Assembly (NCBI GenBank): GCA_009841255.1
Contig: VXMD01000008.1
Coordinates: forward strand, 125,445 to 189,444
Reading direction: 5' to 3'
From: Candidatus Poribacteria bacterium
GTDB lineage: Bacteria; Poribacteria; WGA-4E; WGA-3G
Length of the DNA stretch: 64,000 nucleotides
The notes beneath the pieces are model-generated. The model was not told the DNA's origin and searched no databases. It was given only the letters and a program-made list of their open reading frames with translations. Below are positions 29,865 through 59,980 of this stretch, piece by piece. Both the position numbers and the translations under genes were made by a program. Within the stretch, counting starts at the first letter, position 1, and every line of letters starts with the position of its first letter.

Positions 29865-29892
29865 TTGACTCCCCTTGAAAAAATGCTATACT
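29865..29892 (+). promoter_or_regulatory. Near-consensus sigma-70 promoter (plus strand)
   Basis: TTGACT, a 16-base spacer ending TGC, and TATACT. It is 30 bases from the divergent minus-strand promoter and directly precedes the structured leader at 29901. Confidence 0.85.
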
Positions 29893-29900
29893 CTCTTTTA

Positions 29901-29987
29901 TCTCACGTTGGCAGACATATCCAGCGTAGTCTCTTGACTACGTGTCTGCCTCCCACTGGATAGGGGATAAACGCGTGAGACGTGAGT
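29901..29987 (+). promoter_or_regulatory. Candidate pseudoknotted cis-regulatory RNA leader
   Basis: A hairpin GGCAGACA (29910-29917)/TGTCTGCC (29943-29950) encloses a second perfect stem CGTAGTC (29925-29931)/GACTACG (29936-29942) with loop TCTT. The seven bases bulged between them, TATCCAG (29918-29924), are exactly complementary to CTGGATA just downstream (29956-29962), which would form a pseudoknot. CTCACGT (29902-29908) can pair with either of two repeats, CGTGAGA (29974-29980) or ACGTGAG (29980-29986). The second overlaps the only purine-rich ribosome-site candidate, about 7 bases before the ATG at 29993. This is the arrangement expected of a riboswitch-like translational switch. Confidence 0.6.
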
Positions 29988-29992
29988 GTCCA

Positions 29993-30223
29993 ATGAAATC
30001 TATTTTGTTTTGTGTGCTACTTTTCTCTCTCCTTGTGCTTCCGGTTGTCGGTGAGACATCCGAAATAGAGGCAATCAAAACGGATATTGCATCCATCAAA
30101 ACCGACATTGCGGTGATGCAAGCAGAGATCAAGAATCTCAATGCGAAGATCGACGATCGGTTTAATAGCGTTGAGGATCGGTTTGATAGCATCGAAAAAA
30201 CTTCGACAGACAGAGTAATCTGA
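29993..30223 (+). CDS. Small exported coiled-coil protein (first frame of a split gene)
   Basis: ATG 29993 begins MKSILFCVLLFSLLVLPVVG, a clear signal peptide or membrane anchor. It is followed by a heptad-repeat helix, with repeated units IKTDIASIKTDIAVMQAEIK and DRFNSVEDRFDSIEK. The 76-residue product stops at 30223, but the -1 frame continues with a transmembrane helix and charged tail to 30369. The switch point is an A6 run at 30195-30200. The gene is preceded by a strong promoter and the structured leader. No specific family is recognised; the general type (anchor, coiled coil, membrane helix) resembles the product at 28406. Confidence 0.7.
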   Translation: MKSILFCVLLFSLLVLPVVGETSEIEAIKTDIASIKTDIAVMQAEIKNLNAKIDDRFNSVEDRFDSIEKTSTDRVI

Positions 30224-30369
30224 TTATTGCGTGTATTGCGATCCAGATGGGCATTATCGCCATCTTGGTGAGTTGGCGGAGTCTTCGAGATAAAGCCGAA
30301 AGCAAACAGATTGAAAAACTATCTCGTGAGATTGAAGATCTCAAACAAGAGCGTCTTAGCAATCCATGA
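30201..30369 (+). other. Continuation of the 29993 gene in the -1 frame (membrane helix and tail)
   Basis: Immediately after the run GAAAAAAC the -1 frame reads NFDRQSNLIIACIAIQMGII, then AILVSWRSLRDKAESKQIEK and a Glu/Lys-rich end, stopping at 30369. It is protein-like from the first codon after the A run and has no start of its own. Joined, the product would be 125 residues: signal, coiled coil, membrane helix, charged helix. The run offers a plausible A-AAA-AAC slippery heptamer for -1 ribosomal frameshifting, but a real one-base deletion or a sequencing error would look the same. Confidence 0.6.
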
Positions 30370-30449
30370 GCAAAAACGGAACATAGTAGAGAACACGACC
30401 CTCACCGCTGGGTGAGGTCTCTACCACTACCGAATTGGAGGATAACAAG

Positions 30450-30737
30450 ATGAACAATGAGAATAAGCCAGTAATTACCCCAATAGGTCGGCAAACATGG
30501 ATTGTTGGGACAGATTTTAAAGTTGAAATCCCTATTTCTAATGCTGATACCGCTTGGGCAGAAGGCAAATTACATATGAGGGCTCTTCATTCTTGGAATA
30601 AGGACAAAGGCATATTAACATTAACAGGACATCCTAATGAGGAAATATCAGATCATGTTGTTACTGTATATGTTGTGAAAGATGGTAATCAAGTAGAACA
30701 TACGATTTATTACGATGTTGTATTGCCTAATTCCTAA
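30450..30737 (+). CDS. Small putative Ig-like (He_PIG-type) protein, 95 residues
   Basis: ATG 30450 has GGAGG 8 bases upstream. The 95-residue product lacks a signal peptide and reads as one beta-sandwich unit: TDFKVEIPISNADTAW, LHMRALHSWNKDKGILTLTG, HPNEEISDHVVTVYVVKDG. This resembles a single repeat of the putative-Ig domains seen in the large protein at 60876 (a sensible fold inference, not a proven one). It lies in the plus-strand branch of the small-protein cluster. Confidence 0.65.
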   Translation: MNNENKPVITPIGRQTWIVGTDFKVEIPISNADTAWAEGKLHMRALHSWNKDKGILTLTGHPNEEISDHVVTVYVVKDGNQVEHTIYYDVVLPNS

Positions 30738-43638: not shown

Positions 43639-43763
43639 TTCTTTTCCATTTTTAATTTTATTTTCTTATTGTGGTATACTGTTCAAACCAGTTTGGGTGG
43701 CACTGCAAACCGTCTGTCACCCTCCCACCTTCGCAGGGGGATAAATGGACTGGAGACTGGTAA

Positions 43764-44030
43764 ATGCAAATGGATGTGTTGGAAGAACTTAAAGCGCGTG
43801 ACGAACGTATTGAAAGATTAGAACGCGCGCTTTTGTTAGTATTAAGTTTGAACGTCGGAAATCACCTCGATAAGTCTTCGAAGAACTGTTTTAGCCATGT
43901 TCAATCTTTTGCGGTGGAGCAGGTGGAGACCCTTGTTGCCGAGTCTGGAAGCACGGAGCAAGTCATTGAAGCATTGCTTGACATCACTGAGAGACGTTAT
44001 CGTGCTGAACTCGATGTATTGGGTCGGTAA
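43764..44030 (+). CDS. Hypothetical 88-residue helical protein
   Basis: GGAG lies 9 bases before the ATG. The product begins with a charged coiled coil (MQMDVLEELKARDERIERLE), continues with RALLLVLSLNVGNHL, which is hydrophobic but short, and ends in an amphipathic helix (IEALLDITERRYRAELDVLG). Not recognised. It stands alone before a hairpin-rich gap. Confidence 0.55.
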   Translation: MQMDVLEELKARDERIERLERALLLVLSLNVGNHLDKSSKNCFSHVQSFAVEQVETLVAESGSTEQVIEALLDITERRYRAELDVLGR

Positions 44031-58744: not shown

Positions 58745-58960
58745 TTGAGTGTTGCCATACTTCCTGCTTCGTCGTTTCGTGCCTTCAAGGAAGGTCTTGC
58801 CGAAACTCCACAGGCGTTTTACTTCTCCTCGCAACTCGTGGCGAAGTGTTAAGAATCAAGCAGGACACAGATTGATAGCCGCGTTGAGGTCTCGATCTAT
58901 AGACAGACCACATGTGAGGCAGTTGTATATCCGATCGGAGAGCATTAGGTGCTTTTTCTT
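58745..58960 (-). ncRNA. Predicted TnpB guide RNA (omega RNA) region
   Basis: In IS605/IS607 elements the RNA that guides TnpB covers the 3' end of tnpB and the right end of the element. Here the minus strand from the tnpB stop reads GTAAAACGCCTGTGGAGTTT, then a stem GACCTTCC-TTG-AAGGCACG-like segment, and ends GGAAGTATGGCAACACTCAA, a conserved and structured stretch near the element end. The boundaries are approximate and the guide would be the flanking host sequence. This is inferred from family knowledge. Confidence 0.5.
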
Positions 58961-59980
58961 GTGTCCGCAGGAGCTACAGGTCTTGGAACTGGCAAAGAAC
59001 GTATCTGCCTGTGTTATAGGAATTCCGCGTCTCTCTGCTTTGTATTTGAGCATTGTGAGAAAGCGTGAGAGTGCGGAGTCGAATAACGCCTTGGCAAGTT
59101 TTCGGTTCTTTAGCAGTCCACTGATATTCAGTGTTTCTATACCGATAGCAGCGGCTTTACGGACAATCTGTGTTGTCGCTTGGTGGTGAGCGTCCTCACG
59201 GATACAGGCGATCCTGTAGTGGACAGCACCGAGTCGTTTCTTTGCTTTATACCAGTTCTTTGACTGATAAACCTTACGCGATAAGGCGCGGTTGGCACGT
59301 GCTAACTTCCGTTCATACCTTTTCAAAGGGCGTGGATTCTCGTAGGTTGTGCCGTCAGAACAGGTCGCAAGCGTATTGATACCTACGTCAATGCCAATCG
59401 GTTGTTTATCGTCAAAGAGAGGCGGTTGGTGCCTATAGTTGTTTGAATCACAACGCACCGTGATAGAAACGAACCAGCGGTCGTCTGTGCGGGATACAAC
59501 GACTTTTGTGATGTCGCCGGTGTAGCGGAGTTCTTCACGCATGCGAACCCACCCGATTTTCGGTAAGTCAATCCGTTTCTTGTGGACTTTTACCGTGCCT
59601 GCTCCATTGTCGGCTTGGTATGAACATTTACCACTTCGGTTCTTATAGACAGGGAAACGGTTTTGTCCTTTCTTCCAACGAGTTAGCGCGTCACCGAGAT
59701 CGCGTATGGCGTTCTTAGAGGCGTTCTGCGATAGAGGTATAGACCAAGGAAACTTCTCACGCTTGACGGCGTTAAATGCCTTGCGTAAGTCCTGCTCACT
59801 CTGATAGTTATCTTCGTCTAATCCTGATTTGAAAGCAGAAAGAGCGAAGTTGAACGCAACACGCCTATAGCCCGCATGCTGTGCCATGAATGTGGCTTGC
59901 TTGTTGTTCGGATTGAGTTCTATCTTCTGGGTTCGTAAGATTTCCAAATTGAAGTTCCAGTTGGGTTTTTTCTTCAGCAA
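58856..59980 (-). CDS. tnpB: TnpB RNA-guided nuclease of IS607-type element
   Basis: The 374-residue protein has an N-terminal WED/REC-like part (QKIELNPNNKQATFMAQHAG), then a RuvC domain with Asp198 in PIGIDVGINTLA, Glu281 in IGIETLNISGLL and Asp363 in SIDRDLNAAINL. A zinc ribbon C-x2-C-x15-C-x2-C (Cys334, 337, 353, 356) is intact. All three RuvC acidic residues are present, so nuclease activity is expected. In the element it promotes retention of the IS at its donor site by guided cutting. It starts inside tnpA in another frame. Confidence 0.93.
   Translation of the reverse strand: MLKKKPNWNFNLEILRTQKIELNPNNKQATFMAQHAGYRRVAFNFALSAFKSGLDEDNYQSEQDLRKAFNAVKREKFPWSIPLSQNASKNAIRDLGDALTRWKKGQNRFPVYKNRSGKCSYQADNGAGTVKVHKKRIDLPKIGWVRMREELRYTGDITKVVVSRTDDRWFVSITVRCDSNNYRHQPPLFDDKQPIGIDVGINTLATCSDGTTYENPRPLKRYERKLARANRALSRKVYQSKNWYKAKKRLGAVHYRIACIREDAHHQATTQIVRKAAAIGIETLNISGLLKNRKLAKALFDSALSRFLTMLKYKAERRGIPITQADTFFASSKTCSSCGHKKKHLMLSDRIYNCLTCGLSIDRDLNAAINLCPA

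Follow-up and report, generated by a model that had tools for sequence, protein, structure and literature searches.

The stretch of interest, in a 64,000-nucleotide window of a Candidatus Poribacteria genome (the whole piece of DNA analysed here, contig VXMD01000008.1, positions 125,445 to 189,444), is a copy of a folded RNA of sponge-symbiont bacteria that had not been described before and that starts the messages of many DNA-cutting, transposon-linked and virus-defence genes. We propose that it belongs to a new cis-acting leader RNA class of Poribacteria that gates translation by strand exchange between two tandem partners, a reading to which comparative sequence evidence leads us to assign a probability of about 0.6. 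TnpB, homing nucleases and single-gene defence proteins need to be controlled by means that are mostly obscure, and here one leader RNA is common to many of them. The covariation of the leader is strong enough to fix its fold without experiment.

A preliminary description of the leader listed two perfect stems of 8 bp (P2) and 7 bp (P3), a bulge, TATCCAG, complementary to a CTGGATA 31 bases downstream, and a CTCACG complementary to two CGTGAG copies; each was found exactly where it had been placed (Table 1). The promoter claimed to precede the leader is represented by sigma-70-like boxes, and relatives carry a −10 box at a like place. We add a further hairpin, P4, whose four pairs close the loop that contains the 3′ pseudoknot strand. 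The minimum-energy fold of a 135-nt stretch has a z-score of −3.5, with 1 of 200 shuffles equally stable.

Table 1. Features of the leader and of related loci in the window.
Feature	Position	Strand	Basis or remark
Sigma-70-like promoter (TTGACT 29865–29870, 16-nt spacer, TATACT 29887–29892)	29865–29892	+	Sequence
Leader RNA, type I, predicted transcription start to start codon	29899–29995	+	Covariance-model match, 101.2 bits, E 7.8e-20 (one of the 15 sequences in the model; the score is a placement, not a test)
P1 5′ strand, two possible partners (CTCACG 29902–29907)	29901–29908	+	Alignment pairing
P2 5′ strand, 8 bp with 29943–29950 (GGCAGACA/TGTCTGCC)	29910–29917	+	Alignment pairing
Pseudoknot 5′ strand (bulge TATCCAG)	29918–29924	+	Alignment pairing
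P3 hairpin, 7 bp, 29925–29931 with 29936–29942	29925–29942	+	Alignment pairing
P2 3′ strand	29943–29950	+	Alignment pairing
P4 hairpin, 4 bp TCCC/GGGA, loop containing the pseudoknot 3′ strand	29951–29967	+	Outer-pair exchange in relatives
Pseudoknot 3′ strand CTGGATA	29956–29962	+	Alignment pairing
Conserved unpaired junction, UAAA plus one base	29968–29972	+	Near-invariant columns
P1 3′ strand, copy 1 (CGTGAG 29974–29979)	29973–29980	+	Alignment pairing
P1′ 3′ strand, copy 2 (CGTGAG 29981–29986), initiation region, just before ATG 29993	29980–29987	+	Alignment pairing
SPCC gene, frameshifted (first frame of 76 codons, to 30223; the rest in another)	29993–30369	+	Homologues of 118–139 aa unbroken
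Degenerate type II leader, the second in the window (no P3; CTGC/GCAG is all that is left of the pseudoknot)	43684–43769	+	38 bits, E 8.7e-6
88-aa gene of the MDIL86 family, after the second leader	43764–44030	+	Relatives behind type II leaders elsewhere

A DNA search of the window's genome returned 13 clear relatives of the leader, 71–84% identical and scattered over contigs, together with one weaker match; almost all stop at an ATG, and the protein gene that it starts differs from copy to copy. When 15 leaders of this genome were aligned, 98.0% of the cells were paired and two-sided changes occurred in 20 of the 30 pairs, whereas control alignments with the partner slid by 1–3 columns gave 25–44% paired cells and at most 5 pairs with two-sided changes. 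Among 59 distinct leaders, 98.8% of the cells in 33 pairs form, and 20 of the 33 show two-sided changes. A covariance model (R1) holding P1, P2 and P3, not the bulge pairing, found 29 copies in the window's genome at E ≤ 0.01. The bulge pairing, which is in no search model, has at least six consecutive Watson-Crick pairs in 97 of 100 distinct type I leaders (null ~0.3%), among which there are 56 different bulge sequences, and in 34 of 55 leaders of the more divergent type II (null ~9%); in the other 21 type II leaders, some of them decayed, the run is shorter than 6. Identical leaders were counted once. For alignment A6, 50 loci were fetched with a pattern fixing parts of P2, P3 and P4, which biases those helices toward structure; the bulge pairing, and P1/P1′ except for the inner edge, lie outside the pattern, and 411 of 413 bulge-pair cells in A6 were Watson-Crick, with no G.U. 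Of 59 distinct rows, 34 have U-A and 25 have A-U as the outer pair of P4, which is never broken; the inner pairs are changed in diverged leaders. The unpaired UAAA between P4 and P1 is near-invariant, and the letters of P1, P2 and the pseudoknot vary freely.

Relatives thus hold the same pairings with other letters, in agreement with the earlier judgement that the pairings lie beyond chance. The covariance-model search for compensatory changes proposed at that stage reveals pairings that covary, and homologous leaders that fail to preserve the stems and the bulge pairing, named in advance as evidence against the idea, were not the outcome of the comparison. We regard it as near certain from the aligned sequences that P1, P2-P3 and P4 meet in a three-way junction, with a pseudoknot in which the P4 loop kisses the 7-nt bulge between P2 and P3. 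The bulge is almost unique to each copy (27 different among 30 in the window's genome), yet strictly Watson-Crick; copies may in this way be kept from cross-pairing.

The mismatches in P3 comprise 32 G.U and 1 A.C, which fits a single strand of this sense, that is, an RNA rather than a DNA feature. Five diverged copies (L079–L083) were left out of this count and kept in the bulge-pairing and two-partner counts; a window element at 30383–30459, discussed below, was left out of the bulge-pairing, two-partner, promoter/Shine-Dalgarno and G.U/A.C counts. TnpB genes, identified by PF07282/PF01385, stand behind 106 of 119 type I leaders and behind 26 of 31 in the window's genome. With most leader copies inside TnpB elements, the leader could be conceived as a DNA feature of IS200/IS605 elements, such as a left-end hairpin or operator, and not as an RNA. 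We consider this extremely improbable: in relatives, identical element pairs start ~110–130 bp upstream of the leader, at the element's own terminal hairpin, so that the leader is internal and not at the element's tip; leaders also precede genes outside such elements; and the cores differ between the copies of one genome, which one DNA-binding protein could not follow. That these cores nevertheless agree inside each copy suggests conservation of base pairing rather than of a site for a DNA-binding protein. Two tnpB copies of the window's genome (L049:475–561 and L036:2607–2700) lack the promoter and leader and retain only the end with the 3′ copies; they are natural deletions.

In 79 of 100 type I leaders (null 0.9%), the P1 5′ strand contains a 6-mer that is matched perfectly by two partners close to the start codon. 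The tandem 3′ copies are 7 nt apart in most type I leaders, with 13 different cores, and both covary with the 5′ strand; for P1′, formed with the copy next to the start codon, 95.5% of the cells are paired and 5 of 8 pairs show two-sided changes. P1 and P1′ are mutually exclusive because the 5′ strand is common to both. The main alternative to selection for two pairings is that replication slippage between tandem copies 7 nt apart keeps copy 2 alike, against which the varying spacing of the copies in type II leaders (mostly 4–8 nt) argues mildly. One TnpB leader (L270) has a single 3′ copy and a repeated 5-mer partner is absent in 6 of the 18 most distant leaders, so two copies are dispensable. 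The earlier proposal of a new pseudoknotted leader with alternative pairings, here two mutually exclusive 3′ partners near the start codon, is thereby supported by covariation. A conserved structured core in an mRNA leader, which is expected of a riboswitch, is present, and mutually exclusive pairings at the expression platform are present as judged by comparison; the label “riboswitch-like” is one that we infer for the leader.

A −10-like box ending 3–4 nt upstream of the leader is present for 96 of 118 leaders of type I and for 31 of 47 of type II, and the leader is therefore predicted to be the very 5′ end of its mRNA. At the other end, the first gene begins where the leader stops in most cases. 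The alternative pairings had been described as ribosome-site pairings. That wording is not borne out, as the region covered by copy 2 contains no Shine-Dalgarno sequence, and we therefore speak of an initiation-region pairing. Shine-Dalgarno-like matches (−20 to −4) are depleted in relatives, being found in 6% of 100 leader tnpB genes, versus 22% of shuffled sequences and 47% of 40 long window ORFs. A conserved AGGGG was considered as a fixed, distant Shine-Dalgarno and rejected, as it belongs to P4 and varies with its partner; a micro-ORF within the P1 copies was likewise rejected, as it is not conserved. This depletion, together with computed energies that make the two pairings about equally stable (mean difference between P1 and P1′ of −0.4 kcal/mol; ≤2 in 41 of 59), is also what one would expect of a leader that fixes translation at a low level through its compact fold and missing Shine-Dalgarno and senses nothing, copy 2 merely making the occlusion surer. 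We find this rather unlikely: a plain hairpin would suffice for that purpose, and the junction, the strictly Watson-Crick pseudoknot and the conserved UAAA suggest more.

Our preferred reading is instead that the leader probably acts as a translation switch on its genes; we infer the switch and, above all, its signal. The transcript would start with the leader, to judge from the promoter position, and the leader would end at the first gene's start codon. P1 formed with copy 1 would leave the start region open, whereas P1′ formed with copy 2 would close it at about −12 to −5. A factor that steadies the junction and UAAA would tip the balance between P1 and P1′ and set translation; it could do so because the two states are of similar computed stability. 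Such a putative factor might be a protein or a small molecule present at particular times, for example during phage infection, and costly or harmful genes (those for TnpB, homing and restriction nucleases, abortive-infection proteins and small membrane proteins) would be held low until wanted.

The genes behind type II leaders were surveyed in a set that is no full census: it combines the weaker-scoring hits of 12 fully listed genomes with the highest-ranked hits of a further 26 and with some from 13 relatives. Its 115 distinct leaders include 36 before SPCC genes (a family of small signal-peptide/coiled-coil/membrane proteins to which the window gene belongs), 14 before genes of the 86–98-aa MDIL86 family, 28 before no ORF of 60 codons and 37 before others. 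Two of these 37 are TnpB genes with their own leader, leaving 35, of which we assign 22 to restriction-modification or abortive infection; several of the methylases are orthologous, and the 22 of 35 do not equal 22 independent events. The 22 are restriction enzymes (BglII, DpnII-type and others: L341, L323, L358, L284; HSDR_N: L347), twelve DNA methylases, four of them assigned by N-terminal likeness (L325, L364, L368, L302), and ApeA-HEPN (L355), AbiTii (L272), TIR (L291), FRG-TPR (L374) and Hypoth_Ymh (L320) proteins. In a PADLOC alignment scan, single methylase models matched at most 11 of the 35; in a control with 39 window ORFs, the families ranked first were helicase, Cas12f/TnpB and others (1–2 members each), and no methylase model was among the 25 listed. 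PF01555 methylases number 40 in the window's 5.7-Mb genome and 173 in seven genomes, and the 12 of 35 behind leaders is far above the genome-wide ~1% (with the gene number estimated rather than counted). By eye, most DNA-methylase genes of these genomes are without a leader, and the link to defence is thus an enrichment, not a rule. GIY-YIG homing endonucleases follow the leaders in L278 (with NUMOD3) and L310. Of the 28 leaders with no ORF of 60 codons behind them, six (L337, L327, L350, L353, L366, L373) are followed by a conserved 28–34-codon ORF and, ~100 nt later, by a methylase-like ORF. This short ORF (for example MTGKPYFFEKSIQQK...) sits between the leader and a methylase-like gene having its own Shine-Dalgarno, and encodes a possible small regulatory peptide.

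The leader of the window does precede a small membrane protein gene, as originally noted; the association is not specific, since most of its close relatives lead TnpB genes. The SPCC gene is frameshifted, with an ORF at 30247–30369 that by eye is homologous to the SPCC C-terminus, and either decay or a fault in the assembly may account for the frameshift. In sister genomes some SPCC relatives stand behind a type II leader (L135, L139, L144, L146) and others have none, so the leader is a movable module; the MDIL86 gene stands behind intact leaders in many sister genomes. Between two small genes, positions 30383–30459 (+) scored 30.8 bits and were rejected as a leader, having no bulge pairing, no P1 copies and a normal GGAGG; they may be a degraded relative of L308/L309, in which the GGTAGAGA hairpin carries a bulge pairing (GTTTGAG/CTCAAAC). 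The window's TnpB gene at 58859–59980 (−) (L042) is without a leader; most TnpB genes of the genome have one, and some do not.

The window's genome holds ~30 dispersed copies, and a search with model R2 found the leader in all 38 genomes of the genus. At E 0.001 it is present in 51 of 84 genomes of the phylum: 38/38 in the genus, 9/20 in the rest of the family, 4/14 in the rest of the order, 0/10 in the rest of the class and 0/2 beyond. In an exact-pattern search, all 50 named matches were Candidatus Poribacteria. Genomes of a different family (G044–G047) carry a third sequence type before TnpB and GIY-YIG genes, with the same architecture and almost no common sequence; bulge pairing of at least 6 bp occurs in 13 of 18 of these (null 0), and two partners in 12 of 18. 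A phage contig in IMG/VR (L262) carries a type I leader; the ORF behind it contains repeated DGTHxFL motifs, NUMOD-like by eye, and RuvC- and methylase-like ORFs (also named by eye) lie nearby. The type II pattern had no match in IMG/VR. One 288-kb contig (G018, C2), perhaps a plasmid or a defence island, carries at least 8 leaders. Two leader-like copies (L161, L163) have a T-run after them and lack an adjacent long ORF; perhaps they are stand-alone RNAs.

One leader common to many unrelated genes, and present on a phage contig too, could be the binding site of a single shared RNA-binding protein, coded by host or phage, that activates or represses all these mRNAs. There is a precedent in abiD1, where a phage protein is said to bind the 5′ UTR and activate translation (PMC12373285). 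The letters of P1, P2 and the pseudoknot vary freely, however, and such a protein would have to recognise shape and a few bases; we see this as possible, if doubtful. It is distinctly unlikely that the leader acts in trans or on its own mRNA as a processed stable 5′ RNA, an RNA antitoxin, a TnpB partner RNA or a protector of the 5′ end from decay. Its compact 5′-terminal fold would be stable enough, and RNA antitoxins do lie upstream of abortive-infection genes in the examples given in that source; however, no repeat array is seen, the leader abuts the start codon, and one RNA would need to recognise proteins as different as TnpB, methylases, TIR and HEPN.

If the leader is instead a switch, its dozens of copies per genome might form one infection- or stress-sensing family, an RNA-level defence regulon in which a common signal, be it a nucleotide, a second messenger or a phage product, jointly releases TnpB, homing and restriction nucleases, methylases, TIR, HEPN and AbiTii proteins and small membrane proteins; we offer this extension tentatively, as a speculative one. 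The leader makes RNA-level control of defence genes readily testable and offers a portable translational element for compact nucleases. It is also a marker for new defence genes, for which the SPCC and MDIL86 small proteins are candidates.

The leader has no counterpart among the families of Rfam 15, which gave no match at gathering score over the whole window; relaxed thresholds gave chance-level matches (e.g., LhrC, E 6.5), none of them on type I or type II leaders. Searches of the open-access literature listed no description of this RNA. In the purine riboswitch, the switching helix is P1, which closes a three-way junction that has a tertiary loop contact. The leader resembles it in having a three-way junction closed by P1, a tertiary loop contact and, as proposed here, switching of P1, and is unlike it in that the kissing contact joins a bulge to a loop and in the absence of an Rfam match. 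Omega RNA and RAGATH-18 reRNA are structured RNAs encoded with TnpB genes, as the leader is; the relevant section of PMC11061315 presents them as guide scaffolds, with the TnpB gene upstream of the RAGATH-18 RNA. Such RNAs lie at the 3′ end of tnpB, whereas the leader is found at the opposite, 5′ end, ahead of the ATG, and leads non-TnpB genes as well. Downstream of one tnpB, a RAGATH-18 match (E 0.24) stayed below threshold.

Structured RNA before an abortive-infection gene is common to the leader, the abiD1 5′ UTR and abiF RNA, a type III-like antitoxin of two repeated hairpins and a terminator that neutralises its protein (as outlined in PMC12373285). These are single-gene systems, the portion of that source describing them does not suggest the leader's topology, and our tests indicate no relatedness; type III toxin-antitoxin loci have a repeat array and terminator before the toxin, whereas in the leaders read a single fold abuts the start codon. 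T4-type homing endonucleases (I-TevI, segB, mobE), as presented in an excerpt of PMC2988022, have an RNA structure at the start that limits translation, with a consensus Shine-Dalgarno hidden in a stable stem and timing set by promoter choice. The leader, in which Shine-Dalgarno sequences are depleted, is a pseudoknotted three-way junction with two tandem partners, and our tests show no relatedness to these structures; on that source's description, the two are nevertheless alike in that RNA structure limits the translation of a selfish nuclease, as we propose for the leader.
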